The translations under genes and the position numbers were made by a program. Below, piece by piece: positions 892-20,732 of a stretch of 22,035 nucleotides of DNA; position 1 is the stretch's first letter; every line of letters begins with the position of its first letter. Below the pieces are notes generated by a model. That model saw only the letters and a program-made list of their open reading frames with translations, had not been told where the DNA came from and made no database searches. This DNA is from a virus: the IMG/VR virus record IMGVR_UViG_3300003894_000028, positions 1-22,035 of that record. One strand, given 5' to 3'.

Positions 892-1169
892 TCGGCCTCC
901 GCGATGAGCGTGGCGTGGAGTTCCCTGATGGCCGCGATGGTGACGCCTATGTCCTCCTCGGTGACTGGCTCATTGCGCCGAAACTCCCCTCCGTTCTGTC
1001 GCCAGAATGGGTCGTTCATGTATTCGATCTCCCCGATACCCCTCTCAGGGTCATACTGAATGGCGTTGACGTTGGGAGCCACTACAGCGGAGACCCTATC
1101 CCCACTATGGTCTGTGGCGCTTACTCCATCAATGACGATGGTTTGGTCTTGTGGAATGATTGAGATCAT
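888..1169 (-). CDS. Small tail-module protein, often found next to phage fibres
   Basis: This encodes 93 residues. The N-terminal half has alternating hydrophobic strands with an Ile-Val-Ile-Asp-Gly-Val motif near residues 11-16. A Pro-Asn-Val-Asn-Ala-Ile-Gln-Tyr segment follows at about 32-39, then Gly-Glu-Ile-Glu-Tyr. From family knowledge, this layout (a strand ending in Asp-Gly-Val, then Pro-x-Asn-Val-x-Ala-hydrophobic, then Ile-Glu-Tyr) recurs in short proteins beside tail fibres in many phages and prophages, with function unknown. The C-terminal third is a predicted helix. The start overlaps the fibre stop by one base (TAATG), with GGAG seven bases upstream. It could be a fibre assembly factor or a minor structural piece. 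Confidence 0.7.
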   Translation of the reverse strand: MISIIPQDQTIVIDGVSATDHSGDRVSAVVAPNVNAIQYDPERGIGEIEYMNDPFWRQNGGEFRRNEPVTEEDIGVTIAAIRELHATLIAEAE

Positions 1170-3124
1170 TAAGCGACTCCGAGATAAATGATATAGGCGA
1201 GAGCGTAGTAGGGAGGGGTCGTGTCAACTGACCCGCTGAACGAGTGATTGTGATTGCCGATGCTATGGCTGTGTGAGCCAATGCCGTGACTGTGCGCTCC
1301 GCTACTCCCCGCGTCACCGCTGTCCCTCGTTGGAAACGTTGAGCCTCTCGCGACTGTCAGCGCCCCGGTTGCGGCATTGAGATCGGCAGTTGTCCCTGCG
1401 ACCTGAGTGGACATACTGTGATGGTGCGACGGCATCCTTGAGGTACTCAAAGTGTGGTTGTCAGTCGAGCCGAGGTCTGTGTCGTTCGTAGATAAATTTG
1501 TGTTATCCACACTCCCCGAGAAGGAGGAACTACTCGATCCACCACTTGACCCGACATTGACCCCAAGCATTCCACCCTTAATGAACCTGTCGGTTAGGTT
1601 TGGAACTTTTGAGGCGTTGGGGTGTCCTGATGCGTTTGCGCCGTCATCACACAGGAACCAACCTTTGCTGTTCAGTTCGGTGAGGTCGCGTACATCATTG
1701 CCTGACCACATTGAGATAATGCCAATGGGAGGCTCGTAACTGTCGCCTCCGGTCACATCAAATCGCATCCCGCTCGGTTGTGACGTAATGCTGATGCCAT
1801 CCCCGGCAATCATCGCGACATCCGAGTACATATCGTTCGAGTCCACCAACTTAATCATCGGTGTGCTTCTTAGATTGGCATCAGTCTCGAGTCGGTACTC
1901 CATGCCGTCCTGACCATCCTGACCCGGAGGGCCGGTCAAATCTTCGAGTTGGGCCGGAGTGAAGTCGTCATAGGTGAAGGGATCACCCTTATCGCCTTTG
2001 GGGCCGGGAACTGTTGAGTCCTGTCCGGTGTCACCCTTTTCGCCTTGTTCGCCTTGTGGGCCTCTGATGTCTCCGAGGTTCTCCCATTGTTCTGTTGCAC
2101 CGCCCCACGCATAGATGACTTGCTCGTCCTCAATGAAGTATGCGTCGCCATCTGCATCACCGGAAGCCGGGAGGTCTGTTGCGCTCGGGAGGTTGCCCTT
2201 AAAGTCGATGCCCTCACCCTTCAAGCCCTGCTCACCTTGCGGGATGGCAAACGACAGATTGACCGCATGGGCATCAGGCGGGCCTGTCTGAGTGACCGCG
2301 ACTGTGACCTCCTCTCCTGGCTCAAGGGTTTCGACATCAGCGGAGAAGTCAGGCGTCACACCGACCGGGCCTTCGGGGCCGGTCAGGCCGTCAAGTTGCT
2401 CGGGAGTGAAATCCTCATACTCGAAGGGATCGCCCTTCGGGCCAGTGGAGCCAGTTAAGCCAGTTGGCCCCGCCGGTATCTTGAAGTCCATATGGACGCC
2501 GGTGTACGGATCGTCGGGAGTGACTGTGACATCCGCGCCCTCTTCGTGGGGAACGGACTCCGCGTCTGCGGTGACGACAGGCGGTGGGCCGACAGGGCCG
2601 ACCTCCCCCTGTATGCCGGGAATCTGGTTTGCTTGATACCAACGCTTGTTGACCGCATCCTGATCCTCGAGGGGATCGGCCAGTGTCCGGACACGACTCC
2701 CGGTCATCTGAATGTCGCCGGTCATCGAGCCGCCGGAGAGTTTCAAATACCGAACGTCGCCCTCCTCGGTTGCCACTTTGTCCTCATAAAGCTCCTGACA
2801 AATCATTGTCAGTTTGTCGAGCGCGGCCTCGTGGCTTTCTGCCGGGAAGGCGTCATATGCTTGGTAATCGGTCTCCTGAGTGATCGGGGTCGTTCGCCAT
2901 ATGCGAATATCTCCGGGAGTCCCGACCTGTACTCTGAGAACCCAATTCCCGGAGCCATCCTCCTCGTCCTTTACGACGGCCGCGATGATCTCGCTCGAGA
3001 TACTCTCGTCGACATACGCCCATCGAACTTGAAGCGGGTCTTCGATCTCAAAGGTGATCGGGAGGTCGGTGACGTTTCCGTTCCAGTTGTAAGAGACCTC
3101 AGTCGTTTGGTTGTTTATCGTCAT
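1169..3124 (-). CDS. Tail fibre with T7-type N-terminal anchor and collagen-like shaft
   Basis: This encodes 651 residues. Residues 1-110 match the anchor region of T7-like fibres (IWRTTPITQETDY at about 75-87, then an Ala-Leu-Asp-Lys-Leu-Thr helix), which attaches the fibre to the tail. Residues 126-160 carry the Leu-Lys-Leu-Ser-Gly-Gly-Ser-Met-Thr-Gly motif seen in many fibres. Gly-X-Y collagen-like stretches occur at about 170-182, 219-232, 296-304, 355-383 and 398-407, separated by small domains. Two copies of a GDPF-(Tyr)-DFTP-x-QL module lie at 231-246 and 380-395, and two beta modules end in Ile-Pro-Ala-Gly or Ile-Pro-Gln-Gly. Residues 467-520 (Gly-Trp-Phe-Leu-Cys-Asp-Asp-Gly, then Val-Pro-Asn-Leu-Thr-Asp-Arg-Phe) are a tail-collar-like domain. 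The C-terminus has several His-x-His motifs (566-627), which bind metal in known trimeric fibres. The start overlaps the upstream stop (TAATG). A trimer is inferred. Confidence 0.9.
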   Translation of the reverse strand: MTINNQTTEVSYNWNGNVTDLPITFEIEDPLQVRWAYVDESISSEIIAAVVKDEEDGSGNWVLRVQVGTPGDIRIWRTTPITQETDYQAYDAFPAESHEAALDKLTMICQELYEDKVATEEGDVRYLKLSGGSMTGDIQMTGSRVRTLADPLEDQDAVNKRWYQANQIPGIQGEVGPVGPPPVVTADAESVPHEEGADVTVTPDDPYTGVHMDFKIPAGPTGLTGSTGPKGDPFEYEDFTPEQLDGLTGPEGPVGVTPDFSADVETLEPGEEVTVAVTQTGPPDAHAVNLSFAIPQGEQGLKGEGIDFKGNLPSATDLPASGDADGDAYFIEDEQVIYAWGGATEQWENLGDIRGPQGEQGEKGDTGQDSTVPGPKGDKGDPFTYDDFTPAQLEDLTGPPGQDGQDGMEYRLETDANLRSTPMIKLVDSNDMYSDVAMIAGDGISITSQPSGMRFDVTGGDSYEPPIGIISMWSGNDVRDLTELNSKGWFLCDDGANASGHPNASKVPNLTDRFIKGGMLGVNVGSSGGSSSSSFSGSVDNTNLSTNDTDLGSTDNHTLSTSRMPSHHHSMSTQVAGTTADLNAATGALTVARGSTFPTRDSGDAGSSGAHSHGIGSHSHSIGNHNHSFSGSVDTTPPYYALAYIIYLGVA

Positions 3125-6100
3125 TAGTCTTTCAATCCGTATTCGAGGGCCGCTCGTAAATAGAAGAGATTGTTATAGGGGATCAGTCTCGCGATCTTCG
3201 ACCAATCCTGATGAGTGAAGTCCTCACCGTTCGCGGTTTTATAGAAGGCGTTCCCGACGGCCCCATATGCTTCGGTCACAAAGCCGAAGGTCGGGCCGAG
3301 GAGTTCCGTGATTGCGTTCCGGGAGTAGTACCGGGAGACCGGGGACAGTCCGACCGCATCTCCGAGTCCTCCGAAGTTGGCGGTCAGTTTTTGCGTTGAC
3401 ATGATCCCGAGATCGAGGAGCGGAAGGAGACCGCTTCGCATCAAACCCTCATAGGCAATCTGCGTTGAACTCATGTCATCGACCTCATCCAACCGGCCAC
3501 GCGAAGCCATGTACAAATACCATCCACCGATTGCCGCCGCCCACGAGGAGAAGATTCCCTCGAGGACTTTGTAATTCCCCATCGCGAGGTTCTGGATGAT
3601 GGGGTTCAGAGTCTTGTCGACTGAGGCAAAGGGGAAGGACTTGAACTGAGTCACGAGCTGCATCGTCGTGTCCTTCGTAATGAACTTAGGAAGATCGGTG
3701 GCTCCCGGTGTGACGATGTTCTTGTCTGATATCCAGTTGGCGAACGCACCGAACTCATCGAGGAGGTTCATGTCGGAGGCGAGGGTCGGTTGCGCTCCGC
3801 TTGCGAGTTCATCCTCATAGGCTCGGCGCACTCCCCCATAGTCGAAGACGTGGACGTTGCCGTGCATGGTTCCATGTCGACGATACAGGTCGGCCACTTG
3901 AGCGAGTTTCTCTTCGCTCCATCCATGTTGAGCAAGCCACAGCCTGTCGGCCTTATCGAGTTTCGCTTTGCCGAGAGCCGCCTCGATCAATCTGTTCTCG
4001 GCAGTCTTGACCGTCGAGACTTTGTTGAACTGGTTGGCATACGGTAGGCCGGTAAGTTTCATAAATCCGGCAGTCATCTTGTTGAAGACCGACCCCACCG
4101 CTCCTCGCTCGAAGCCGTCATCAATGTCGTCGCTGATCTTGTGCATCGTGGTCGCGGAGGCGATGTCATGGATGTTCGCCATGAACGCGGCATCCTCCTG
4201 ACTGATCTCGGCCGCGAACGAGCGCATCCGGCGCATCGTCGGGGCGAACATCTTGCCGTATCCCTTGAGACCGCCATTCTTCATTGCGCCCATCGTGACA
4301 TCAGGCATCGACATGAAGAGAACCGAACCGAGGCCGCGCATGATTTGAAGGTCTTTCAAAAGGGACGCGATCCGTCGGAACTCTTGGCTCCCTTCGTTGG
4401 CCTTGTGCTGAATGACCCGGATCGAATGTTCAAAGTCTTCGAGGTCGGCTAGGATGCGCTTGCGAATCTTTTCGGCTTTCTTTCTCGGGAGGCCATGCGT
4501 CCGGACTTCGATCTCATCCATGACCTGTTTGATCATGTCGGCATGGCGCTGAGTGCCGGGAAGGACTCCCGCGTTCTTGAGTTCAAGATAAGGAGCGACT
4601 TGCATATTGTTCTTGGTCAGGATTCCCGAATACGACTGATCGAGGAGTTCCCCCATTAAGGGATCATCCTGTTCAAACATCAGGTGCCGACCTTGCAAGG
4701 CACTCGGGACTTTCGATGCGTCCGGGTTCAGTACACCGGCATCGACTCCCGCGACTCCTCCGGTGTTATCCCCCGAGATCGTTCGATACGATTCGCGCAG
4801 TAGTTGGGTCTCGGCTTTCTCATTCCACTCGTCGAGCTGCCTACGGTAAATCTCGCGCATTGACGGAAGAATGTCCTCATTTCTGGACAGTCTTTCGAGT
4901 TTCGCTTTCTTGGATGGCAAGCCGCGTCGAACGAATTCCTCCTCGCCAATGTTCTGAACCTTCTGGCGACTCCAAGACTGCGGGAGGTAATTCTTGTCCC
5001 CGGTCAACATCCTGACCAACTTGTAAGCGGCGTTCCGGTCGCCATTGTCGAAGACCCGCTTCGAGAGCGGAATCAACTCGTCAATCATCCGGAGTTGAAG
5101 GTCGCGCTCGGCTTCGAGTTTCTTGACCCGAGCATCTCTCAACTCGGCGACTTCGCCTTTGTAATTTGCCGATGCCTCCCAATCCTTCTCGGCCTTTGCG
5201 AGTTTGGCCGGGAAGTTGGCAAGGGTTTCCTCGCGGAGAGCGGCCAGTCGGTCGGGCGTCCAGTCTGCTCTCGTGAGGACATCTTGGTGGTATCCCTGAC
5301 GGAAGCGGTAGTCTTCCATCTGAGCCCAATTTTCGTTGAGGTCTTTGTAAGCCTTCTTCTCCCATTCCCGGAGAGGCCGCGCCTGACCTGTGGCTTCAAT
5401 AATCTCCTCGCCATCGGTTCGCATCAGTCGAGCCATGTGACGATCCAGATCGCCAAACGTGGTGTCGCGGATGATGGCTTTCGGGAGGCTCCCATAGAAG
5501 TCCTTCCGATATTTGTCCATGATCAGAAGCACTCGATCCACATATCGGGAGGAGGCATTGATCCGGGCCTCGACCGGTGCGGGGATCGCATCGCCGACCT
5601 TACCTTGCACGTTCGCCTTAGAGGCGAGACCCCCGCCGAAGACTCGAGTCCCCAACGAACGAATGGCGGCGCTCGGAGAGGTCTGCATATTGGTGATTGG
5701 GTTCACTCCCCGGACGAGACCACGCTTCGCGAAGACATCGGTCTCGGCATCAATGGCCTCATATTCGGCACGACGCTCCGCGATCAGAATCTCCTCGTCG
5801 AGTCCCTCCGTCTTTGCGCGGGTTCTGATCTCGTCGAGGCTCTCACTGATGCGAACATCATCGAGCGCGAGGTTGGTGCCATGTACGAGCGAATCATCTT
5901 CCACCGGGGCGAACCGGGAATTGTCGAGGTGGGTCTCGAGGTCTGTCTCGTATTCCTTGACCTTGCTGAGTACCTCCGGATCGTTGGAACTTCTGATCCT
6001 CGCGATCCCTCCGATGCCGTATCCCAAAGCTCCGGCGATTGCCGTTCCGGCGACTACGTTGGTGAATGATTCGTTGAACGTCCTCATCGGTTGGAGTTGG

Positions 6101-10529: not shown

Positions 10530-12362
10530 CTATCCCGCGTTGCTTTGATAAATTCCATAAAGTGCGACCAGTTGTGTTTTCTTCGGGATGTCCTGTTCGA
10601 TGGTTATCGTCCCCGACAAGTCCCATCCAAGATTCAGAATGTCGTAGTCCCCTGTCCGGAGGTCTTCTGGATCACCCATCGGAGTCGAGGGTGTTCTTGC
10701 CGAAGGTCGAACGCCTTCTATTAAAGGGAGGGCCGAGTCGACCACCTTTGCGTAAATCTGGCCCCATCGTTGTGAGGTGCCGAGATTGGTTCCGGCTGAG
10801 TTGCCATCGTTGTAGGGCGTGGTCTCGAGTCGACTGACATAAGGCAAGCCGACCTCGATCTGTTTGCCGGGAAGGTCGAGAGTGATCTGACCGCCGCTCA
10901 CGGTCTTCGGGGTTTGCACCCCACCATTGACGACAGGTTGTACGACCTTTCCTTCGAGGTGATCAAGACCGCCGACCGCTGAGAGTTCCACATCATTGTC
11001 CGGAGGCGTGGTCAGTGACGAGTCGGTATAGACCTCCGGGTTCATATACTCGACGCAATAGTTGTCGCCACGTTTAACACAAACCCAAGTCTCATCCGCT
11101 GACTCGTTGGGGATGGTCGTGACGCTGACGACAAGACCATCAGTCGGGTGCCTGGCCCAGCCCATCGCGGAATAATCCTCGTCGTCGATGGCGGGGTCGT
11201 GGGTCATCGAGATCAAGGAACCATTCGCTAACACTTGCCAGAGAACCGAGTCCGGGACGAGTTCGTATGTCTGCGCGATCACCCCGCTGTCGGTAATGTG
11301 TTCGGCAAACCACGCAAGATCGCGGGAGATATATTGCTCAATGGCTGATCGGGCGTTCTGTGAGTACGACCTGACCTGTCGGCCGGAGCCTTGAACGAAG
11401 ACGGTGAGTTCACCGATATAGACCGGCTGAATGTGTCGGCCTCCATAAGAAGAAGTCCGAGCGATGTTCGGGATATTATTGACGCTGACATACTCGTCAG
11501 GCGTGAGGCGTTGCTCCGTTCCTGATGTTCCGATGAGAAGAACCTTCTCGGAGGAGAGCCACTCAATCTTCTCCTGACTGTACGCGGCGAGGGTCAACTC
11601 GAGCGCATCATCGGGTGCAATAGAGTCCGGGTCATTGTTGACCGTGAACTCATAAAAGTCCCCGATGCGAGAAGCCCACAAAGTCTGAGGCTTTGTCCGG
11701 ATACCTCCGAACCATAGACGTTGCTGATAAAAGACAACCGTCCGGGGATACCCTGCTCCCGCTGACCACTGAGCGCCGGTAAACGTGGGAACTTCCACTC
11801 GCCAATCCGTCGCACCGTATCGTCCGAGCCTTTGCGGTGGATGATCAGGGTGGACGAGGATCATCACGTCGTTTGCCTGACTCCAATGGACATCCCAAAT
11901 CTGATCGACTGTGAAAGGCGAGTCGATCTCATAAATGTCGCCCGAACCGTAAGTGTCGACCTCGTAAGATGAGGTCAGGTCATCCGGGTTCGCCCTACCC
12001 AATCCCGGAATGGATCGGAGCCTTCGCCTCCCTGTTCTGTCGCCATACTTGTCAGCGGAGAACAGTGAACTCTCGACGATGGTTCCACTCGAGCGGTGGA
12101 ATCTGATTTTCCTGTCGGTGAATTCGAGGACGTAACTTTGCTCTCGATTGAAAACGAAAGGGATGAGTCGTGCAGGGCCACCGGCAGTCTCGCCAATAAA
12201 GTTCATACCGAACCGACGCTTGACACCTCCTCGAGCGGAGACAACGAAGTTCTCGAGGGTGCGACAAGCGGAGGCGTATTGATTGGTGTTGACTCGCCCT
12301 TCTGAGAGCGGAGATATCTCGCCAGTCGAAAAATCCGTGATGACCTGTTGGACTCGCGCCAT
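10530..12362 (-). CDS. Tail tubular protein B (tail nozzle), T7 gp12-like
   Basis: This encodes 610 residues. The N-terminus carries the family hallmark: Phe-Ser-Thr-Gly-Glu-Ile-Ser-Pro followed by a Gly-Arg and a conserved Tyr (11-29), then Gly-Gly-Val-Lys-Arg-Arg-Phe-Gly (45-52). The remainder is beta-rich, as expected for the nozzle that forms the distal end of the short tail. It is somewhat smaller than T7 gp12 (about 790 residues), within the spread of related podoviruses. The start overlaps the tail tubular A stop by one base (TAATG). The C-terminus ends in a strand-rich segment (Gly-Thr-Ile-Thr-Ile-Glu). The neighbouring genes fully support the call. Confidence 0.92.
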   Translation of the reverse strand: MARVQQVITDFSTGEISPLSEGRVNTNQYASACRTLENFVVSARGGVKRRFGMNFIGETAGGPARLIPFVFNREQSYVLEFTDRKIRFHRSSGTIVESSLFSADKYGDRTGRRRLRSIPGLGRANPDDLTSSYEVDTYGSGDIYEIDSPFTVDQIWDVHWSQANDVMILVHPDHPPQRLGRYGATDWRVEVPTFTGAQWSAGAGYPRTVVFYQQRLWFGGIRTKPQTLWASRIGDFYEFTVNNDPDSIAPDDALELTLAAYSQEKIEWLSSEKVLLIGTSGTEQRLTPDEYVSVNNIPNIARTSSYGGRHIQPVYIGELTVFVQGSGRQVRSYSQNARSAIEQYISRDLAWFAEHITDSGVIAQTYELVPDSVLWQVLANGSLISMTHDPAIDDEDYSAMGWARHPTDGLVVSVTTIPNESADETWVCVKRGDNYCVEYMNPEVYTDSSLTTPPDNDVELSAVGGLDHLEGKVVQPVVNGGVQTPKTVSGGQITLDLPGKQIEVGLPYVSRLETTPYNDGNSAGTNLGTSQRWGQIYAKVVDSALPLIEGVRPSARTPSTPMGDPEDLRTGDYDILNLGWDLSGTITIEQDIPKKTQLVALYGIYQSNAG

Positions 12363-12931
12363 TACGCTCGAACCTGTTCAAAGTGATTGGGGCCGATCCT
12401 CCTGGCCGACTGCTCGAGAGAGTCGGTCGTCCGGGCCTCATCCAATACCTGTGAGAACAGTGCATTGAAGTTGCTCATCGAGGTGTTGTTTCCGGTCATG
12501 GCATAAGCCATCTCGGAAGCCAGTCGATAGACGAGGGCTTGAACGAGTTGGGTGCTGTACTTGCTCTCCGGGATCGCGTTGCTGAGATACACGATGGACA
12601 GAGGACTTTGGTTCGCCAAAACGGCGGTGCCGTTGACTTCCCATTGGTAGACCTTATTCGCGGAAGGCGAGAAGACCTCGAGGACGCGGATGCAATCCTC
12701 CGGCAGTTGGTACTGATGCTCGTATTCGCTGATGGGTTTGTCAGCGAGTTCGTTGAGTTCCTTCCTCCGCTTGAGGCTTGCCCACGGATACGCCCTCAAG
12801 ACGTAATCGCGAGTCGAAAGATATAAAGTCTTTGCGATCTTTGCCTCGTTGGAGTCTTCGGTGAACGAGGTGATCTCTCGACCTCCGAGCAACATGAGGG
12901 CGCGGTTTGCTACGTCGATGCTCGTGATCAT
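12362..12931 (-). CDS. Tail tubular protein A (adaptor), T7 gp11-like
   Basis: This encodes 189 residues, close to the usual length of about 190. The hallmark N-terminus is present: Asn-Arg-Ala-Leu-Met-Leu-Leu-Gly (9-16), then Ile-Thr-Ser-Phe with a following Asp-Ser, and Leu-Arg-Ala-Tyr-Pro-Trp (45-50). The family forms a twelve-membered ring under the portal to which the nozzle and fibres attach. The start is an ATG three bases after the stop of the 64-residue gene, with only a weak ribosome site. The stop overlaps the tail tubular B start. Confidence 0.92.
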   Translation of the reverse strand: MITSIDVANRALMLLGGREITSFTEDSNEAKIAKTLYLSTRDYVLRAYPWASLKRRKELNELADKPISEYEHQYQLPEDCIRVLEVFSPSANKVYQWEVNGTAVLANQSPLSIVYLSNAIPESKYSTQLVQALVYRLASEMAYAMTGNNTSMSNFNALFSQVLDEARTTDSLEQSARRIGPNHFEQVRA

Positions 12932-13185: not shown

Positions 13186-14049
13186 TTAGATGAGAATCTG
13201 GACGATCTTCTCTTCTTCGATACGGCTTGCGCCGTGAGTCGCTGACAAAAAGACCTGCCAAGCGTATGAAACGTCCGGACGCTGGTCGATCTTGGTTTTG
13301 ATGTCGGCACCGACAGCAAGACGCATCGCGCTTTTGTGATACGCGAGAGCCTGCGCGGTATCTTCGGCGACCAACTCGGTCATCACGATATCGAAGCCGA
13401 TCCACTTTTTGAGCGAACCGTCAACAAGAGCGCGAACCGTGTTGAAGTCTTGCGAAGTGACTTCCGTCGAAGACAGGAGATCAGTCAACGCTTTGGAGTT
13501 GATCACGAGGTAACGTCCCTCGGGGTCGACTTCGTTGGCGTCGAGTTTCTCCTTCGCGGCCAGAATGGCGTCGAGCGTCAAACCGGCGCCCGCAGCTCCG
13601 ACCACCATGTCGGTGTCGAACGCAACAGTCGTCCCCTCGCCATCAGTCGCGTCACCGGTAGCGGCGGCGATAATGGTTCGGTCGATCTGGCGGTTCATGG
13701 CCCACACACCGGCCTTCGCATACTCGGACTTCGGAGAGATCAGCATACGGAGCAAATCTTCGTTATCGAGAAGATCGGCCCAATACCAGTCCTCCATCGG
13801 GAACTTCCGACGAGAGTGTGGTACGTCTAAAATGACTGTTGGGGTGTGGCGAGTTGTACGCTGTTGCGCCTCGACCACGCCCATTCTTTCCACATTGCAA
13901 ATCTCGGCCTTGCAGACCTGTTCCATCACGGTCGAGCGAAGTCGAGAGGGGTGCTGTTGAGAGAGGTGAACTACATTGGATTTGAACGCCTCGATAAAGG
14001 CGGCATCAACCGAGGATGAGCCTCCGGGCATCGGATCAGATAAAGGCAT
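13186..14049 (-). CDS. Major capsid protein
   Basis: This encodes 287 residues. It resembles the small-capsid family found in podoviruses related to Bordetella phage BPP-1, which adopts the HK97 fold. The hallmark segment is His-Ser-Arg-Arg-Lys-Phe-Pro-Met-Glu-Asp-Trp-Tyr-Trp-Ala-Asp-Leu-Leu (about 78-94), a beta strand leading into the long helix (about 109-131). The C-terminal half alternates strands and helices with a Gly-Arg-Tyr-Leu-Val-Ile segment (178-183). The start is fixed by AGGAGG five bases upstream, the strongest ribosome site in the window, as expected for the most abundant protein. It follows scaffold and precedes the tail adaptor, as in T7. I see no cleavable prodomain and no slippery site for a longer minor form. 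Confidence 0.9.
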   Translation of the reverse strand: MPLSDPMPGGSSSVDAAFIEAFKSNVVHLSQQHPSRLRSTVMEQVCKAEICNVERMGVVEAQQRTTRHTPTVILDVPHSRRKFPMEDWYWADLLDNEDLLRMLISPKSEYAKAGVWAMNRQIDRTIIAAATGDATDGEGTTVAFDTDMVVGAAGAGLTLDAILAAKEKLDANEVDPEGRYLVINSKALTDLLSSTEVTSQDFNTVRALVDGSLKKWIGFDIVMTELVAEDTAQALAYHKSAMRLAVGADIKTKIDQRPDVSYAWQVFLSATHGASRIEEEKIVQILI

Positions 14050-14325: not shown

Positions 14326-14790
14326 TTAATTTCCTCCCGGCATGAGGGAGGAGAACGGTTGGAGCCAGTTCTTTTTCTTTAGGGTGTTGTAATAATTTCC
14401 ACCGGACAGGATCGTTGAGTTCAAGGCTTTAGAGGCATCTTTCGGCCTCATGCGCTCCCTTTCTGCGGCGAGTTGTTCTTGCTGTCGGTTGTAGGCGTTC
14501 TGTTGGTCGATCTGCTGTTGCTTCATTGCCTCAACCAAGTCGGCAACTTCGTTTTTGAGATCGGCAACTTCGTCCTCGGGACTGGTTGTTTCTTCGGTTG
14601 GCGGGGTGTTGGTGTCGGGCGTCGTCTTCGGCGGGATATAGTTGCCGGTCGCCTTGAGAGACTTGTGCATATCTGTCGACCAAGTGCCGCCGCCTAGTTC
14701 GACCTGTTGCTTGGCCTTGCCATACTTGCCTTGCTTGGCATAGTCGACCGCCCTACCCCATTTACTGCCTCTGACGTTACCGGCGGCCAT
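14326..14790 (-). CDS. Low-complexity head-module protein with coiled coil and Lys-Lys-Lys tail
   Basis: This encodes 154 residues. Residues 8-50 are a small Gly/Lys/aromatic domain (Trp-Gly-Arg-Ala-Val-Asp-Tyr-Ala). Residues 52-72 are a Pro/Thr/Glu-rich linker. Residues 73-116 form a likely coiled coil with a repeated Glu-Val-Ala-Asp-Leu heptad and a Gln-rich continuation. The C-terminus has Leu-Asn-Ser-Thr-Ile-Leu (123-128), then Lys-Lys-Lys-Asn-Trp-Leu-Gln-Pro (138-145). That ending closely matches the ends of the two proteins at 17936-18559 and 18562-19095. It overlaps the upstream lysine-rich gene by one base (TGATG). Function is unknown; its position between scaffold and capsid suggests a head component. 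Confidence 0.75.
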   Translation of the reverse strand: MAAGNVRGSKWGRAVDYAKQGKYGKAKQQVELGGGTWSTDMHKSLKATGNYIPPKTTPDTNTPPTEETTSPEDEVADLKNEVADLVEAMKQQQIDQQNAYNRQQEQLAAERERMRPKDASKALNSTILSGGNYYNTLKKKNWLQPFSSLMPGGN

Positions 14791-15191
14791 CAGTCAAGCC
14801 ACTTGCTGACGCGCTTCTTGTTCTTGTCCTTACGACCGGACAGAATCTGAATGGCACGTTCATGGGCCTTAATCACGCCAGCACTCTTGTCTTTCTTTTT
14901 GACACTGGCAAGCCGCTTCTCCATGTCACTGACCTTCCCGGCCCAATGCTTGTTGATGGCTTCGGCGTGTTTCTTGAGACCGGCCTTGTCTTTGGCCTTT
15001 AGGCGAATGGCGTCCTGTTCTTTTATTTTCTTGCCGAGCGCCACGGCCTCATCACGATACTTCTTCGCGACATCCTTCTTCCCGGCCTTCATGGCGTCGC
15101 GCATTTGTTTGACTTTCGCCAAACGGTTTTTGTTTATGTCGGCGCGTTTTTTCTTGGCCGCGGCGACCTGTGCGGCAGTTGGTTTCGCCAT
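14790..15191 (-). CDS. Very lysine-rich helical protein, possible DNA- or capsid-interior-binding
   Basis: This encodes 133 residues, of which about 33 are Lys and 9 Arg against about 15 Asp and Glu, a net charge near +27. It is almost all helix-favouring Ala/Lys/Glu/Asp, with one Trp near residue 83 and one near the end, resembling histone H1 tails or a basic coiled coil. An AGGAGG site overlaps the scaffold stop codon seven bases before the ATG, so it is probably made in quantity. It sits between scaffold and capsid genes. It may bind packaged DNA, neutralise the acidic scaffold, or act as an internal head protein. I do not recognise a named family. Confidence 0.75.
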   Translation of the reverse strand: MAKPTAAQVAAAKKKRADINKNRLAKVKQMRDAMKAGKKDVAKKYRDEAVALGKKIKEQDAIRLKAKDKAGLKKHAEAINKHWAGKVSDMEKRLASVKKKDKSAGVIKAHERAIQILSGRKDKNKKRVSKWLD

Positions 15192-15200
15192 TGTGTCCTC

Positions 15201-16076
15201 CTATTCTGGATTGGCGTAGCGGTGTAGATCGAGGAAGCGTTCCATCGCGGCCTCATCGCCGTTGTGATAAGGATGTTGAGGGTTGTTCTGCATCTCCATA
15301 ATCTGTTGCCGAGCCTCATACGGTGTGAGTCCGGTTGATCCCTCGTGTGTTCCCGCGAAGCCCTGTCCTTCTTTGAGGTTTGCGCCGAGTGCTTGGAACA
15401 CTCGGATCACGGCAGGGTTATTCCCCGCTCCGGTTGAGTCCAATGCCTCGGACAATCCCGGTGCGGTTTGCTCAAGAAAAGCGACGGCCCTCCGGCCCTC
15501 TTCCACTTTCCTGTCGAAAGCCAGACCCCACTCCTGACGGAGAACATTGACATCATGTTCCACCATTTCAGTCGCGTTGGCCTGTGCGTCTTCTTCCCTG
15601 AGTTCGTTGTACATGGATATCGCTTCGACCTGTTCGCGGTTTAACCCCGCCGCCAAAGCGATTGAGAGGAAATCCTCGTCCACGCCTTCAAGACCGTATC
15701 CGGATATGTCGTCAGGAGCCCCCGCCGCCTCATAAAGAGAGGTCAGGTCATCCGGGTTGTACCGGGCGAGGCCAGGCACATCACTGAACCGGTCATAGAA
15801 CTTGTTCCAGTCCTCTTCCCCCGCGTCGGTGCCGGGGATGCGGATCGAGTTGCCAATCATCGACTGCGCGTTGACGTATCCCTTTGCGAGATCATCTATC
15901 GAGTCCACATCCAGAGCGTTCCGGATATTAGGATCAAGGCCGTCGCGCCAATCAGAAGGGAGCGGCGCGTTCGCCGTTTCCGAACCATTGCTCGGCACTC
16001 CTCCAATATCGCCTGACGGACTAAGACCCTCCGACTCTGCTCCTCCGCTTGCTTCCGCTGTTGCTTGTTCAATCAT
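15201..16076 (-). CDS. Capsid scaffolding protein
   Basis: This encodes 291 residues, acidic and mostly helical. The N-terminal 35 residues are disordered Ser/Gly/Glu-rich. The recognisable segment is Leu-Pro-Ser-Asp-Trp-Arg-Asp-Gly-Leu (39-47), followed by Ser-Ile-Asp-Asp-Leu-Ala-Lys-Gly-Tyr-Val-Asn-Ala-Gln (59-71) and Ile-Arg-Ile-Pro-Gly (78-82). This layout is typical of podovirus scaffolds. The C-terminus ends with His-Pro-Tyr-His-Asn-Gly-Asp and a final helix, also usual for the family, where it contacts the capsid. The protein directs procapsid assembly and then leaves. Its ATG overlaps the upstream stop (ATGA), with GGAG seven bases upstream. Its place between portal and capsid equals T7 gene 9. 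Confidence 0.88.
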   Translation of the reverse strand: MIEQATAEASGGAESEGLSPSGDIGGVPSNGSETANAPLPSDWRDGLDPNIRNALDVDSIDDLAKGYVNAQSMIGNSIRIPGTDAGEEDWNKFYDRFSDVPGLARYNPDDLTSLYEAAGAPDDISGYGLEGVDEDFLSIALAAGLNREQVEAISMYNELREEDAQANATEMVEHDVNVLRQEWGLAFDRKVEEGRRAVAFLEQTAPGLSEALDSTGAGNNPAVIRVFQALGANLKEGQGFAGTHEGSTGLTPYEARQQIMEMQNNPQHPYHNGDEAAMERFLDLHRYANPE

Positions 16077-16291
16077 TGGTCTCCGGCTCCCTTTTCGTTC
16101 AGTTGCTTCAATGTCAACACCAGATTCTTCTCACCTTCTGAAAATGCCGTGGTGTCCGGCTTTCCCTCAACCCAAGTCCGTCGCATCACAAAGGCGTCGA
16201 CCATGAAGTCAAGAAGTTCTTGACCGTCCTGTTTGCCGAATACCTTTTTGACCGACTGCTCGAAGTTGAAGTTTTCCCATTTCCGACTCAT
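16073..16291 (-). CDS. Bbp19-like small phage protein
   Basis: This encodes 72 residues. It has the pattern of the small phage family named after Bordetella phage Bbp19: a Gly-Gln-Glu-Leu-Leu-Asp-Phe-Met helix (23-30), then Arg-Arg-Thr-Trp-Val-Glu-Gly-Lys-Pro-Asp-Thr-Thr-Ala-Phe (37-50), then Glu-Gly-Glu-Lys-Asn-Leu-Val-Leu and a closing Leu-Lys-Gln-Leu. The family is usually found beside portal and scaffold genes; its function is not established. The start overlaps the portal stop (TAATG) and the stop overlaps the scaffold start (ATGA), so all three are probably translated in a coupled way. Confidence 0.85.
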   Translation of the reverse strand: MSRKWENFNFEQSVKKVFGKQDGQELLDFMVDAFVMRRTWVEGKPDTTAFSEGEKNLVLTLKQLNEKGAGDQ

Positions 16292-17934
16292 TAGATTTGC
16301 GCTCCCATTTGTGTTTCAGCGGCCATCGCCGCATCTTTCAGACCTCCGGCTTGAGTGGCTCTCGTCTGAGCCATCGACGCCTCCATTGCCATCGCCTCCT
16401 GTTGGGCTTGTTGCTCGGCTCGTTGTGCTTGCAGTTCGTCGACCTCGGCTTCGCCTTTGAGTGCCTTCGCCGGGGCTCCATACCGCTCCGCGAGAATTCG
16501 CATCGCACCATTCACGTCGATGATGTCGAGAGCGTTGGGATCGAGTTGTGACCACTGAGCTGCAAGGCCGAACAGGCGCTCAATCGCCTGTGCGTCTTCC
16601 ATTCTTTGGTTTCTTGCGAGTGGGCCTTGATACTCGATCTCAATCTTGGAGTCCGATAAGACATCCGGCTGATCACTGAACTGTCCGGCGCGATACATCA
16701 CACCGAAGACGCGCTCGATCAGCGGATTGAGGAATTCAGTTTGCAGTCGACCGAGCGTCGGCCCGAGGACTCGGTTCATTAGTGAATATCTGATCTCGAT
16801 CTCTGTGGCCGTTGTATTGTGTTTTTGCGGCCCGAGGTTGAGTTGATCAATCAGATAGATCGACTTGATGTTCTGATGGAGTTCTTCGGATTTGATCTGT
16901 ACCGCTTGCCACTGTGTTGCTTGAGTGAGCGGGGCCAGGGAGTTCATGTCCCGGACAAAGGTGAGACCACGCGCCTCGAGGTGGAGGTCGCCGATGATGC
17001 CGGTAGCACTCGCCATGATTGGCGGGTCGATGGTTTTCTCCCACGCGCCCAACTCGTACCGCTTCGCGAGGTTGATCGTCCGGATGTCAGCACGAGCCAA
17101 CACGCCGGGGCCGAAGCCATATAGATCGCCGGTTACTTTCCCCCACCGTGGGACGAGGTACGGCATTTCCTGATATCCCCCGGTCTCGAGAATGTGCTGA
17201 TCATCGACCGCGATCCAGTGTGATATGAACTGTCGCTTCTCCGGATCGGGGATGGGGTTGTCAGGTTGGTAGTCCTCATTCGGCATGACGCAATGGAGGA
17301 ACTTGAACTCTTTGTCGGGATTGTTCTCGAGGGCGTGAGCGATCTTGTCGAGTTTCTCGGCCTCCGGCCATCGTTGCGCCGCCTGTCGAGCGGTCATCTG
17401 TCTCTGGTGGTACACCGTGTCGACGATGCCGTCAGCGTTCTCCGCGATACAGATGCTCCCCAAATGGAGCGCATGGAATTGGAGTTTGAAACTGTTCGCC
17501 TGAGTGGCCTGTTCGACAAACATCGCACCGGTGCCGAACGCACAGAGGTCTTGGTACATCTCCGAGACTTGCGTCGCGAAATTGGAATCGCTGAACGCGC
17601 TCCCCATTCTCCCGGTGCAGTCCTCAAGCCACTCCATCGCCTCATCGGTGCGATTGAGTTCGCCGTCGTCATATTTCATGGTGAACCACGGCGCGGAGGG
17701 ATTTGTGAGGGACGAGTGCATATGCGAGGCGAGCATCGCGTTGGAGTGCATCGCCGTGGAGTCGAAGACCCGCTCTCCCCGGTAGGTGCCGGGAGTGCGT
17801 TTACTGATGAAACCCTGTCGGCCAGGCAGTACGAAGGTTGCGATCTCTTCCCAAAGCGAATCCCAATTTGATCGAGCCGAGACCATCTTCTTGTGTCTCT
17901 CGATCATCTTTTTCGCTTGCATTTCTTTATCCAT
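16291..17934 (-). CDS. Portal (head-to-tail connector) protein, T7 gp8-like
   Basis: This encodes 547 residues, the usual length for the T7-type connector family. The N-terminus has Arg-Ser-Asn-Trp-Asp-Ser-Leu-Trp-Glu-Glu-Ile-Ala (21-32) and Phe-Val-Leu-Pro (34-37), then Asn-Pro-Ser-Ala-Pro-Trp-Phe (78-84) and Gly-Thr-Gly-Ala-Met-Phe-Val-Glu (134-141), all hallmarks. The last 60 residues are Ala/Gln/Met-rich helix, matching the barrel end of such portals. Twelve copies form the ring through which DNA enters and leaves. It starts one base after the upstream stop, with a poor ribosome site, and overlaps the downstream Bbp19-like gene. The terminase large subunit that docks on it is encoded three genes upstream. 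Confidence 0.93.
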   Translation of the reverse strand: MDKEMQAKKMIERHKKMVSARSNWDSLWEEIATFVLPGRQGFISKRTPGTYRGERVFDSTAMHSNAMLASHMHSSLTNPSAPWFTMKYDDGELNRTDEAMEWLEDCTGRMGSAFSDSNFATQVSEMYQDLCAFGTGAMFVEQATQANSFKLQFHALHLGSICIAENADGIVDTVYHQRQMTARQAAQRWPEAEKLDKIAHALENNPDKEFKFLHCVMPNEDYQPDNPIPDPEKRQFISHWIAVDDQHILETGGYQEMPYLVPRWGKVTGDLYGFGPGVLARADIRTINLAKRYELGAWEKTIDPPIMASATGIIGDLHLEARGLTFVRDMNSLAPLTQATQWQAVQIKSEELHQNIKSIYLIDQLNLGPQKHNTTATEIEIRYSLMNRVLGPTLGRLQTEFLNPLIERVFGVMYRAGQFSDQPDVLSDSKIEIEYQGPLARNQRMEDAQAIERLFGLAAQWSQLDPNALDIIDVNGAMRILAERYGAPAKALKGEAEVDELQAQRAEQQAQQEAMAMEASMAQTRATQAGGLKDAAMAAETQMGAQI

Positions 17935-17935
17935 T

Positions 17936-18559
17936 TTATGAACCGGCTGGCGTCAGGTATGACTTTTTCTTTTTTTCCGGGTTCGGGAGGAACGCGGCCG
18001 GATTGAGGATCGTGTTCTCAAGACCGTCCCCCGGCTTGCTGACCTTTTCGGCCTCCTCCTGAGTGACCACCGGAGTCGACAGGCTTTTGGTGAGCATCGC
18101 GATCATCTCCATCAATGCTTTGGTGTTTTCGTCGAGGCCGGGTTTTCCGGTATTGGAAGAACCGCCGGAGGAGCCTCCGGACGAACCGCCAGACGAACCG
18201 CCGGACGAGCCGCCGCCTCCACCTCCACCGCCAGAGGAATAAGAAACCGTTCCCGGCATTGCTCGTCCCTCTTGCTTGCCGGACTGGTGCCAGTGCATCG
18301 CGCCAAATTCGGCCATGCTGATGCCTTCATTCTTCCCGCTGTACGGATCAGGTGCGCCCCGCTTCCAATGCTTGTTGTAGTTGTCCAACAAGTCTTTGTG
18401 CTGTCTTACATACTCAGCATAGTTTGGATTCTTGACTCCTTGACTGCCGTGTTTGGTGGTGAACTTCACGTCCTCCATCTTCTCAGCGGCCGCGATCTCT
18501 TTTTGGTGTTGCGGGTCTGGCTTGCTACCGCCACCGAAAAGGCTTGAGAGGAGGCTCAT
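17936..18559 (-). CDS. Head-module protein with Gly/Ser tether and Lys-run tail (paralogue 1)
   Basis: This encodes 207 residues. Residues 47-100 form a small domain: Tyr-x-x-Gln-His-Lys-Asp-Leu-Leu-Asp-Asn-Tyr, then Ala-Glu-Phe-Gly-Ala-Met-His-Trp and Gly-Lys-Gln-Glu-Gly-Arg. The last part resembles the His-aromatic-x5-Glu-Gly-Arg repeat found in many phage and bacterial surface proteins. Residues 108-135 are a pure Gly/Ser tether. Residues 141-162 form a short amphipathic helix. Residues 180-185 are Leu-Glu-Asn-Thr-Ile-Leu, and the protein ends Lys-Lys-Lys-Lys-Ser-Tyr-Leu-Thr-Pro-Ala-Gly-Ser. The next upstream gene has the same layout and is a likely paralogue. GGAG lies eight bases before the ATG. 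Function is unknown. Confidence 0.8.
   Translation of the reverse strand: MSLLSSLFGGGSKPDPQHQKEIAAAEKMEDVKFTTKHGSQGVKNPNYAEYVRQHKDLLDNYNKHWKRGAPDPYSGKNEGISMAEFGAMHWHQSGKQEGRAMPGTVSYSSGGGGGGGGSSGGSSGGSSGGSSGGSSNTGKPGLDENTKALMEMIAMLTKSLSTPVVTQEEAEKVSKPGDGLENTILNPAAFLPNPEKKKKSYLTPAGS
18159..18218 (-). repeat. 12-bp tandem repeat coding for a Gly-Gly-Ser-Ser tether
   Basis: About five units of a 12-bp sequence close to GAACCGCCGGAC (plus strand) lie in tandem and encode repeated Ser-Ser-Gly-Gly on the minus strand. A further run of Gly codons follows at 18219-18232. Unit identity is high but not perfect, which suggests recent expansion or contraction by slippage. The tether length probably varies among relatives. 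Confidence 0.8.
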
Positions 18560-18561
18560 AA

Positions 18562-19095
18562 TCAGGCTCCGATGGGTGTGAGGAAGGACTTTTTCTTCTT
18601 AGCCTCCTCGATGTTGAAGTTGGTGAGGAGGGTCTGTGCGGCGCTCACGGCCTGTGATGCGGCTTCCGACGATTGCGTCGAAGTCGAGGTCGAGGTCGAA
18701 TTGGTATTTCCCGCTCTGGCCGTAGCGAGATCGGAGAGCATCTTCACCAAGTCGACGAGTTCTCTGTTGAGCGGGTTTTGTTCCTGTTGTGTTCCGGAGT
18801 TGCCGCCGGAGTTGCCGCCGGAGTTGCCCCCTGATCCTGCGGCCTCCCTCTCGCGGAGTTTGGCGGCGTAGTCGACCCCACTCTTCTCATGTATTTTCCG
18901 ACCGGCACGTTTGCCATGAGCGCGGTAGTGGTTCTGCGCGTACTCCGCGGCAGTTTCCGCGAGCAAAGGTGTGCCGTCGTTCCTCATGTAAGCATTGGCT
19001 TGACGACCTCTGTCCCAAGTCCATTTGCCTCCATCGGAGTATTCGTCGTATACGTCCTTGTATTGGTACATATACCTTGCCCAATCTGTCGCCAT
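18562..19095 (-). CDS. Head-module protein with Gly-Asn tether and Lys-run tail (paralogue 2)
   Basis: This encodes 177 residues. Residues 5-67 match the domain of the next gene downstream: Tyr-x-x-Gln-Tyr-Lys-Asp-Val-Tyr-Asp-Glu-Tyr, then Ala-Glu-Tyr-Ala-Gln-Asn-His-Tyr and Gly-Lys-Arg-Ala-Gly-Arg. Residues 87-101 are a Gly-Gly-Asn-Ser tether, residues 108-125 a short helix, and residues 132-140 a Ser-Thr repeat. The protein ends Lys-Lys-Lys-Lys-Ser-Phe-Leu-Thr-Pro-Ile-Gly-Ala. The start has AGGA overlapping the large terminase stop. It lies between terminase and portal, where extra head genes are often found. No named family is recognised. The shared architecture points to a duplicated virion or head-assembly protein. 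Confidence 0.8.
   Translation of the reverse strand: MATDWARYMYQYKDVYDEYSDGGKWTWDRGRQANAYMRNDGTPLLAETAAEYAQNHYRAHGKRAGRKIHEKSGVDYAAKLREREAAGSGGNSGGNSGGNSGTQQEQNPLNRELVDLVKMLSDLATARAGNTNSTSTSTSTQSSEAASQAVSAAQTLLTNFNIEEAKKKKSFLTPIGA
18677..18700 (-). repeat. 6-bp tandem repeat coding for Ser-Thr
   Basis: Four units of GTCGA(A/G) on the plus strand encode the Ser-Thr repeat of the protein at 18562-19095. It is a simple slippage-prone repeat in a presumed disordered linker. Confidence 0.8.
18794..18829 (-). repeat. 12-bp tandem repeat coding for Gly-Gly-Asn-Ser
   Basis: Three units of CCGGAGTTGCC(G/C) encode the Gly-Gly-Asn-Ser tether of the protein at 18562-19095. The unit length matches the 12-bp repeat in the neighbouring paralogue, but the sequence differs, so the two tethers may have expanded separately. 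Confidence 0.8.
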
Positions 19096-19104
19096 CTTTC
19101 TGTC

Positions 19105-20472
19105 CTAGTGAAGTGTTGCGAAGACTCGTGGCCTTCTGATTCCGGAAGCGATCTGCGCGGCGTTCGTTACCATGTCGACGCTTCCCGCCAAGTACCGCAT
19201 CGCATCCGCACCATGCGAGGAGTGGTCGTGAACCGCTTTCTGTCGAAAGACCCCTTTGCGGTCATCCCATTCGCGATGATATTCATAGAGGCAAGACAGC
19301 AAGCGATGGCAATTCGCGCTGTCAATCCAGACGCGGTTCATAATGGATCGCACCGCGTTGATGCCATCCTGTACCGGCATCTTCGGGACGATGTTGAAGT
19401 GCATCCCTAACTCGGCGGCAATGTCGAGTCGGCTCATGCCGGAGGACATTTCCCTGACCTTCAAGTCCCACGGCCCCCAATGCTCTCCCCATATGTAATC
19501 AAGGTTCTGCAGCTCGCGGATGAAATAGTCGAGCCCCTTGCCGTTCTCCTCGATATAGTCGATCAGTCTGATCTCGTTCCCGGCAAACTGCGCCATGATG
19601 ATCGCCGTGGAGTCGGAGACACCCAAGTCCCAAAAGGTATGCACCGGGAGTTTGGAGTCGTAAGGGACTTTCGTGATCCGTCCCTCGAGTTCCATCTTGT
19701 TCATCTGGTCGGCGTAGTACGCACCGCGCACCGTCGACGTGAACTGTGCGAGGAGTTCCTGACCGTACTCCTCCTCGCTCATGGTCTGGCGCATCTGATC
19801 GACCTCATCGGCCATCAGCGTCCCGGCCTCTTGCCAGTTGATCTGAAAACGCGCCCAACCGGTCGGGCTCTTCCCGGCGTGTTCCCACTTGGCGAAGAAG
19901 TCGTTCCCCTTGCCGTTGGGAGTGCCGGAGAACATACAAAAGCCCCGGCGGTCAGCGAGTGCGGGACGGATTACTTTGTCGAAGGCTCCGTGGGGGAACA
20001 TTCCATACTCGTCGAGTACCGCGCCGTCAAAATACTGACCACGAATTGCGTCAGGATTATCAACACCGTAAAGCCTAATGCGAGAGCCATTAGGCAAGTC
20101 GCAACGCAACTCGCCTTCGTGGTACTTAACCATCGGGACAACCTTACTGAACTCCTTGAGGTAATCCCACGCGATGCTCTTCGACATCTTGAGTTGAGGT
20201 GCGATATACGCGAACCTGGATCTTCCGTCTTTAGCGGCGAGGGCTTTTGCCAGAAGGTGATTGATTGCCGCCACAGTCTTACCAGAGCGACGAGCGGCCA
20301 CGACGACCGTGAACCGGTTCTCATCCATGAGTCGGTGAATTTCCTTCTGGTGGGGATAGGGCTTGTAGGGGATGACAATGGTCTTGATGACCCCCTTCTT
20401 GAAGTCCCCGACCTCACCGCCTCCCGATGACTTGAGAGGTTCAAGGTCTTCACGTTTGAGGTTGCTCTTCAT
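19105..20472 (-). CDS. terL: Terminase large subunit (ATPase and nuclease)
   Basis: This encodes 455 residues, a normal length. The packaging ATPase has an arginine-containing Walker A motif Ala-Ala-Arg-Arg-Ser-Gly-Lys-Thr (59-66), a Walker B motif Gly-Ala-Val-Leu-Asp-Glu (150-155) and a coupling Ser-Gly-Thr (182-184). The C-terminal RNase H-like nuclease shows Phe-Trp-Asp-Leu-Gly (280-284, Asp282 as first acidic ligand) and Ser-His-Gly-Ala-Asp-Ala-Met-Arg-Tyr (419-427, Asp423). The enzyme drives DNA into the procapsid through the portal and cuts the concatemer. The ATG is not preceded by a clear ribosome site. Instead it follows two tandem CCCAAAGCA units, after a 35-bp gap from the HNH gene. 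The stop overlaps the ribosome site of the next gene. Confidence 0.97.
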   Translation of the reverse strand: MKSNLKREDLEPLKSSGGGEVGDFKKGVIKTIVIPYKPYPHQKEIHRLMDENRFTVVVAARRSGKTVAAINHLLAKALAAKDGRSRFAYIAPQLKMSKSIAWDYLKEFSKVVPMVKYHEGELRCDLPNGSRIRLYGVDNPDAIRGQYFDGAVLDEYGMFPHGAFDKVIRPALADRRGFCMFSGTPNGKGNDFFAKWEHAGKSPTGWARFQINWQEAGTLMADEVDQMRQTMSEEEYGQELLAQFTSTVRGAYYADQMNKMELEGRITKVPYDSKLPVHTFWDLGVSDSTAIIMAQFAGNEIRLIDYIEENGKGLDYFIRELQNLDYIWGEHWGPWDLKVREMSSGMSRLDIAAELGMHFNIVPKMPVQDGINAVRSIMNRVWIDSANCHRLLSCLYEYHREWDDRKGVFRQKAVHDHSSHGADAMRYLAGSVDMVTNAAQIASGIRRPRVFATLH

Positions 20473-20507: not shown

Positions 20508-20732
20508 CTATTTATTCCGGCCGCGATTCTTCGAGGCGCTTTGGAGTCTGAGGTTGCTCCGGGAGTTGTTATTCGGATTCCGATCTTTGTGATCCACGTC
20601 CTTCCCCCTGACAGCACTCTCCCCGAGCCGCTTTGTCAGGAGTGTGCGAGCCGCATTGCGTTTCGCTCTCCGGCGTATCTGCTCCGGTTTGCCGTGGTAC
20701 TCGCGATATTCCTTCTTGTAGTCTCTGGTCAT
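20508..20732 (-). CDS. Small HNH endonuclease between terminase genes
   Basis: This encodes 74 very basic residues. The N-terminal half is an Arg/Lys-rich helix. The catalytic part reads Gly-Lys-Asp-Val-Asp-His-Lys-Asp (43-50) with His48, then Asn-Asn-Asn (54-56), Ser-Asn-Leu-Arg (59-62) and Lys-Asn-Arg (68-70), an HNN-type version of the HNH metal site. Small proteins with this DVDH, NN and NR pattern are common in marine and other phages. It lies between the probable small and large terminase genes. Such enzymes either help terminase cut DNA or are free-standing homing endonucleases. The ATG has only a weak purine-rich site upstream. The sequence cannot decide between the two roles. Confidence 0.85.
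   Translation of the reverse strand: MTRDYKKEYREYHGKPEQIRRRAKRNAARTLLTKRLGESAVRGKDVDHKDRNPNNNSRSNLRLQSASKNRGRNK

Follow-up and report, generated by a model that had tools for sequence, protein, structure and literature searches.

Two small virion proteins of phage T7 offer precedents for the proteins considered here. The C-terminal loop of gp7.3 (residues 84-98, KKSLSVARSSGGGIN) is present in six copies, each fixed to two neighbouring nozzle subunits where adaptor and nozzle meet; K84 and K85 touch the DNA end, and the N-terminus is disordered around the DNA (PMC11784390). This protein is required in assembly but dispensable in the mature particle, and residues 2-15 of the other, gp6.7, wrap the portal barrel as loop I (PMC11784390). 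Genes 6.7 and 7.3 lie just upstream of the portal gene 8, and among T7 relatives the C-terminus of gp7.3 is invariant while its N-terminus varies. Here we describe a similar pattern of variation in a 22,035-base viral contig, IMG/VR record IMGVR_UViG_3300003894_000028 (the window; a virus record, possibly a fragment). Its minus strand encodes a podovirus late module, recognised from open reading frames (ORFs) and Pfam and PHROG profile matches, in which three proteins share a C-terminal tail. We classify the tail as the clade-specific variant of a C-terminal element that is widespread and unnamed on low-copy podovirus proteins, and its likeliest reading is a docking tag.

Three tailed proteins of the window

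An earlier note on this DNA had pointed to three head-module proteins with similar endings, and the ORF list confirms both their coordinates and their C-termini:

18562..19095, minus strand: tailed protein 1 (177 aa; ORF), the gene that follows the large terminase; an N-terminal domain (residues about 1-65) is followed by a Gly/Asn/Ser linker, a helix and the tail
18565..18636, minus strand: tail of protein 1, residues 154-177, QTLLTNFNIEEAKKKKSFLTPIGA
17936..18559, minus strand: tailed protein 2 (207 aa; ORF), immediately upstream of the portal gene; N-terminal domain paralogous to that of protein 1, Gly/Ser linker, helix, tail
17939..18016, minus strand: tail of protein 2, residues 182-207, NTILNPAAFLPNPEKKKKSYLTPAGS
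14326..14790, minus strand: tailed protein 3 (154 aa; ORF), between the scaffold-like and major capsid genes; unlike the others in its N-terminus, which is followed by a coiled coil, an M[KR]PxDASxALxSTIL segment and the tail
14329..14418, minus strand: tail of protein 3, residues 125-154, STILSGGNYYNTLKKKNWLQPFSSLMPGGN

The C-termini of proteins 1, 2 and 3 (QTLLTNFNIEEAKKKKSFLTPIGA, LENTILNPAAFLPNPEKKKKSYLTPAGS and LNSTILSGGNYYNTLKKKNWLQPFSSLMPGGN, respectively) have in common the pattern T-[IL]-L-x(8-10)-K3-4-[SN]-[FYW]-L-[TQ]-P. The upstream box, which the note had placed in two proteins only, at L180 and L123, is indeed found at these residues, but it occurs in all three proteins (NTIL, STIL and QTLL), 8-10 residues before the lysines. 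The proteins start MATDW, MSLLSSLFGGGSKPDP and MAAGNV. The idea that the N-terminal domains differ survives for protein 3 alone; proteins 1 and 2 are paralogs (36% identity over residues 33-206, E = 9e-14), and their relation spans most of their length. Recent gene conversion or copying of the two paralog tails was considered and is unlikely, since 25/36 nucleotides are identical over the last 12 codons.

The layout of linker and helix before the tail is visible in the sequence. AlphaFold places helices at residues 108-129 and 142-158 of the 177-aa protein with low confidence, the sole part at fair confidence being a small helical N-terminal domain, and Foldseek returned no structural match for this model. 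Searches of the window tailed proteins against Pfam and PHROGs gave low-complexity matches only, and the 207-aa protein had one weak tblastn match in 50,697 phage records and no match in a viral contig collection. An N-terminal pattern, Y...DL/DV...A..H[WY]...G...gR, recurs in three tailed paralogs of the clade (17936-19095; L003:2355-2792); Pfam, PHROGs and structural comparison gave no match for this domain.

The tail is conserved in relatives. Among the close ones, the portal-matched contigs L003-L010 (portal identity 75-79%), up to four genes per phage end T[IVL]L...KKK..[FYH]L[TQS][PS]; homologs of protein 1 occupy the same slot in L003, L004, L005 and L009, and homologs of protein 2 lie immediately upstream of the portal gene in L003-L010. 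Phages with less similar portals (33-43%), among them the Pelagibacter phages Baldr and HTVC010P, carry between one and four small tailed genes in the same place, and these end [ST]ILTGPxG(V/L)...KKTLLG. In L015, four tailed genes stand in a row.

A C-terminal element shared across podoviruses

The canonical tail, [ST]ILTGPxG(V/L)-x(5-10)-KKTLLG, is found in PHROG 831, a cluster listed with unknown function. Written more broadly, its second box reads KK[ST]LLG. The PHROG 831 profile matches gp3 of epsilon15 (E = 6e-34), two proteins of HTVC010P (2e-21 and 3e-19) and two of Baldr (about 1e-6 and 4e-7); in Bbp22 of BPP-1 the match is confined to the last 32 residues. The window proteins gave no PHROG 831 match by hmmscan, with a profile that is specific but insensitive (1/369 gammaproteobacterial genomes matched at E 1e-4). 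We built a profile from 16 window-clade tails only and searched with it the C-terminal 60 residues of 2799 genes called outside this clade. Canonical tailed genes filled 49 of the 50 top places (area under the curve 0.98), and the only one of the top 10 that departs from the pattern, in L048, also ends STILTGPLGIEEEAETEDKNLLGS. In the reverse search, with a canonical profile, the first two places among all clade ORFs went to window-clade proteins, at modest E-values of 0.03 and 0.1. Bridging forms occur, such as STLLTGTAGVQDKKKKQNFLQPIGG in L004. A direct profile-profile comparison between the paralog family and the epsilon15-type family aligned the right columns and was not significant. The window tails retain T-[IL]-L-x and K-x-L, but terminate in [FYW]L[TQ]P. 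Because of the clade-tail profile result and the shared gene position, we regard the window tail as a divergent form of the canonical tail, related to PHROG 831 but not a scoring member.

The tail travels with different N-terminal parts. Epsilon15-type proteins (N-terminus MC...PKxxTPP) and AF/YA3-type proteins (MGKKVKKA or MGGAVKKV) can be aligned only in their last 46 residues (probability 98%, E = 3e-13). When 20 diverse tailed proteins are aligned, Met1 and two leucines of the tail are the sole invariant columns and a lysine of the tail is nearly so; no enzymatic domain was recognised in these proteins. Judged from these alignments, the tail is a C-terminal tag shared by unrelated N-termini and not a single protein family.

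The lysine run, with which the earlier note began its description of the tail, is not the core of the motif, because many canonical tails carry only one or two lysines; the core is the [ST]ILT box together with a terminal LLG or [FY]LTP. The same property bears on whether a lysine-rich tail might only bind DNA, without a protein partner. The run in the window clade and the positive stretches (KRKGR) that precede the TILT box in pelagiphages would suit such a role, but conservation is highest at hydrophobic positions (L, L, G or [FY]-L-x-P) and the scarcity of lysines in canonical tails also counts against it; we consider this very improbable. The statement that no named motif matches the tail holds for the name, since a literature search with the tail sequence and name found no paper naming it, although the element was already contained in the unnamed cluster. 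A search of the PDB with the tail profile gave no match, and the alignment of diverse tails was too variable for a scan of the contig collection.

Genomic position of the tailed genes

For a survey of position, genes were called mechanically on about 185 viral loci, and terminase, portal and capsid genes were assigned by profile. The loci contain 233 tailed genes, of which 232 lie between the large terminase and the portal gene (164 with both markers present and 68 in the same slot on contigs that do not reach one of the markers). The tail is on none of 524 same-strand genes upstream of the terminase, on none of 919 opposite-strand genes, and on 1/387 genes downstream of the portal, which is the window's own 14326-14790. 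Where both markers are present (127 loci), 113 loci have at least one pattern match and several others have looser forms. Some loci were fetched by the tail itself, so that tail presence is biased there while position is unbiased. The link of the tail to the head module is solid, and the matches are not the random Lys-rich C-termini that the earlier note had named as a refuting outcome.

A chance or low-complexity likeness of unrelated Lys-rich C-termini, combined with recent duplication, could have been read from the window, where two of the three proteins are paralogs and low-complexity linkers are present. The survey refutes it. When the last 50 residues were shuffled in about 2200 gene calls other than the markers, at most 0.14 matches were expected per position class vs 233 observed, and the positional clustering, the recovery of canonical tails by an independent clade-tail profile and the divergence of the paralog tails, which are no recent copy, leave this explanation practically no weight.

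A sample drawn independently of the tail points the same way. PF12236 was searched in 369 gammaproteobacterial genomes, and four of the six portal genes obtained (in G001, L247, L248 and, in variant form, L250) are directly preceded by a tailed gene; since G001 is the Citrobacter genome at the centre of the draw, in which the tail was already known, the count among new portal genes is 3/5. Tailed genes stand directly upstream of the portal in prophages of Citrobacter, Proteus, Providencia, Buttiauxella, Methylophaga and Marinobacterium, as well as in Pseudomonas Ab31, AF, HU1 and Caulobacter Jess A, and in a looser form in Acinetobacter TPWB-05. They also precede the portal in pelagiphages, epsilon15 (gp3) and BPP-1 (Bbp22) and, with one small gene between, in Pseudomonas YA3, and Vibrio 1.185.O has a tailed gene in the terminase-portal slot. 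In two records, L036 and L245 (OQ414636 and OQ414635), the Baldr and Hodr locus tags are swapped, the Baldr record bearing EXVC031PHodr tags and vice versa. Acetyltransferase genes occur in the terminase-portal slot of Baldr (L036) and of phages AF and HU1.

The remainder of the late module in the window comprises the following features:

19105..20472, minus strand: terminase large subunit (Terminase_6N, E = 3e-9)
16291..17934, minus strand: portal protein (Head-tail_con PF12236, E = 1e-120)
16073-16291, minus-strand late module: Bbp19-like gene
15201..16076, minus strand: scaffold/capsid-assembly-like protein (phrog_3742; weak protease phrog_458), between portal and major capsid protein (MCP)
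14790..15191, minus strand: Lys-rich 133-aa protein without tail (ORF), neighbour of tailed gene 3
13186..14049, minus strand: MCP (Phage_capsid_2 PF19821, E = 1e-73)
12362..12931, minus strand: adaptor-type tail protein, tail tubular A position (phrog_394); candidate partner region
10530..12362, minus strand: nozzle-type protein, tail tubular B position (by position only; no Pfam match)

Tailed genes 1 and 2 of the window are between terminase and portal, and 14326-14790 is outside, while its relatives are inside. Homologs of the C-terminal half of protein 3 lie between terminase and portal in L004, L005, L008 and L009 and upstream of the portal in L007. In L003, a homolog of the Lys-rich protein (within 2719-3180) adjoins a tailed gene between terminase and portal. 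The Lys-rich/tailed pair is thus found between scaffold and MCP in the window (14326-15191) and, in reversed order, between terminase and portal in L003 (2355-3180), as if the Lys-rich gene and tailed gene 3 had been relocated as a unit. Since the relatives of protein 3 reside in the terminase-portal slot and the window pair between scaffold and MCP, the tag is not tied to one gene or place. All 18 window-clade tails examined, on different N-termini, end aromatic-L-x-[PS], an ending seen in 0/217 tails outside the clade; this joint switch suggests that one common partner changed.

Other genes of these regions are worth recording. The scaffold-MCP slot of two close relatives (L007:3634-3942 and L009:6854-7162) is taken by a 102-aa protein similar to iron-sulphur carriers of the A type (PF01521, E = 4e-5 to 6e-5, slightly short of the Pfam cut-off), which is odd within a capsid module. 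A recombination endonuclease VII-type gene (PF02945, E = 1e-23) stands between two tailed genes in L005:3234-3602 and L008:1793-2161. In the window, a small HNH endonuclease (20508-20732; PF13392, E = 2e-7) lies beside the terminase genes, and a 651-aa protein (1169-3124) with several collagen-like Gly-x-y stretches (GPQGEQGEKGDTG...) is likely a tail fibre.

Proposed docking at the portal vertex and comparison with known systems

At least one tailed protein is present in virions. ORF3 of YA3 (84 aa, 1888-2142 of MK819239), a phage other than that of the window, ends SSTILGGALGTPATTATKTLLGG, and its product gp3 is one of 13 proteins that mass spectrometry identified in purified virions, where its content was too low for it to show on the gel (PMC7326022). 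The slot, size and charge of the tailed proteins match those of T7 gp6.7 and gp7.3, and in HTVC010P a PKxP-type gene followed by an MGGAV-type gene before the portal reproduces the order of T7 6.7 and 7.3. By analogy, we propose, at about even confidence, that low-copy virion proteins in the genomic place of gp6.7 and gp7.3 share this tail as a docking peptide, and we infer an anchor at the portal-tail channel. The hydrophobic boxes would bind a repeated site in the portal-adaptor-nozzle channel, with the nozzle-type protein at 10530..12362 as a candidate partner in the manner of T7 gp12. The lysines could face the DNA end, like the C-terminal loop of gp7.3, and the variable N-terminal parts, held at the portal vertex, may help to assemble or plug the tail and exit with the DNA. 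The recurrence of the tail on several proteins might reflect their use of equivalent copies of a single site. A broader version, which we hold tentatively and with more doubt than belief, sees a portable docking code: one C-terminal tag, duplicated on as many as four payload proteins in a genome and movable between genomic sites, would address a single repeated portal-tail channel site throughout a large lineage of podoviruses (pelagiphages, epsilon15, BPP-1 and relatives), each phage loading its own proteins for ejection ahead of the DNA.

The virion data also bear on two other roles. The tail could be a capsid-interior loading peptide that binds the HK97-fold MCP and packages cargo with the DNA, as encapsulin peptides do for their cargo. 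It is short, C-terminal, behind a flexible linker and on several unrelated N-termini, and the third tailed gene of the window adjoins the MCP gene; but gene linkage is to the portal and not the MCP in 232/233 cases, the abundance of YA3 gp3 in virions is low (PMC7326022), and the 20 diverse tailed proteins have no recognised enzymatic domain, which together make this role improbable. Alternatively, the tail would act in assembly only, for instance by recruiting the scaffold or by serving the phage maturation protease as a site, with no role in the mature virion. Some of these phages do encode a protease-scaffold gene beside the MCP, and gp7.3 sets a precedent for a protein that only assembly needs (PMC11784390). 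The presence of YA3 gp3 in purified virions, in a report whose main text is silent on whether the C-terminus is intact (PMC7326022), opposes this, and we give it very little credence.

More serious, though still unlikely in our view, is docking at the barrel of the portal or at the internal ejection core, by which core proteins would be tied to the portal as in gp6.7 loop I. Tailed genes abut the portal gene, and many tailed proteins start MC...PK[IV]kTPP, like gp6.7 (MCFSPKIKTPKM) with its barrel-wrapping residues 2-15 (PMC11784390). Yet gp6.7 binds the barrel by its N-terminus and not its C-terminus, the N-terminal resemblance is not significant by profile, and the tail occurs behind gp7.3-like N-termini too. 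The earlier note had suggested the portal, the capsid interior or the scaffold as partner. In an AlphaFold model of a Providencia tailed-protein/portal fusion (in-frame neighbours, with the stop read as Gly), the portal part is ordered, the tailed part is disordered and no docking is seen; with one subunit of the dodecamer and 26 homologs this is a weak test, and the result is compatible with docking at a subunit interface or on another protein. A shared C-terminal element, its link to the head module and variable N-termini stand from the original proposal of a docking or sorting tag, while the nearest solved precedent, gp7.3, would suggest a partner at the nozzle-adaptor junction (PMC11784390).

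Several results, the absence of docking in this fusion model among them, weigh against a docking peptide in the place of gp6.7 and gp7.3. The tail profile scores T7 gp7.3 and gp6.7 at E = 15 and 11, not above background; hhalign with gp7.3 recovers only the N-terminal MGKKVKKA (probability 6%), and profile comparison with gp6.7 only MC-x-x-x-K. In Vibrio phiVC8 (L039) and Alteromonas ZP6 (L040), which have PF12236 portals, terminase and portal genes are adjacent and no tailed gene separates them, so not every phage with this portal needs the tail. Since the tail profile found nothing significant in the ORFs of T7, phiKMV, P-SSP7, HTVC019P, phiVC8 and ZP6, we do not claim homology to gp6.7 or gp7.3.

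Small portal-adjacent proteins are usually annotated as hypothetical in the pelagiphages, which are among the most abundant ocean viruses, and in model phages such as epsilon15 and BPP-1. A shared tag would give them one class, a predicted place in the particle and a link to the role of gp6.7 and gp7.3, and would also offer a route to load protein into phage heads for delivery. The observation of the earlier note is real, and the tail reaches beyond the window.

Encapsulin cargo-loading peptides are short, C-terminal and placed behind flexible linkers. The tail has the same layout in principle, and the likeness is one of layout only; it differs in that gene linkage here is to the portal. T7 gp6.7 (phrog_1391) is likewise a small virion protein encoded upstream of the portal, and its N-terminus resembles the MC...PKIKTPPP of epsilon15-type tailed proteins, but its C-terminus is RKSAFGGKK; the window proteins lack the gp6.7-type N-terminal MCxSPKxKxPK loop. 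In phiKMV, gp29 is annotated as a virion structural protein (phrog_4893), and this profile matches gp29 (E = 2e-8) as well as the tailed YA3 gp3 (E = 5e-20) and AF gp4 (8e-17), although gp29 ends GTGVSQTLGINY and not in a canonical tail.

T7 gp7.3 (PF11653, phrog_1320; PDB 9jyz) is a small basic virion protein encoded upstream of the portal, with a conserved C-terminal KK-S-L... loop behind a variable N-terminus, and some tailed proteins also start MGKKVKKA. It ends GGGINI and not LLG or LTP, and its C-terminal loop has no significant similarity to the tail; the window proteins match neither PF11653 nor phrog_1320, and phages AF and TPWB-05 give weak N-terminal gp7.3 matches only (0.009 and 0.03). 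The slot, the contrast of N- and C-terminal variation, the gene order and phrog_4893 are reasons to think that the tailed proteins may act in a gp7.3-like mode, and are not proof of membership. The proteins of PHROG 831, such as epsilon15 gp3 and those of HTVC010P, are small, have the C-terminal [ST]ILTGxxG...KKTLLG element and are encoded directly upstream of a PF12236 portal gene; the window proteins bear a related element and differ in being larger (154-207 aa), in their other N-terminal parts and in a tail that ends KKKK[SN][FYW]L[TQ]P.

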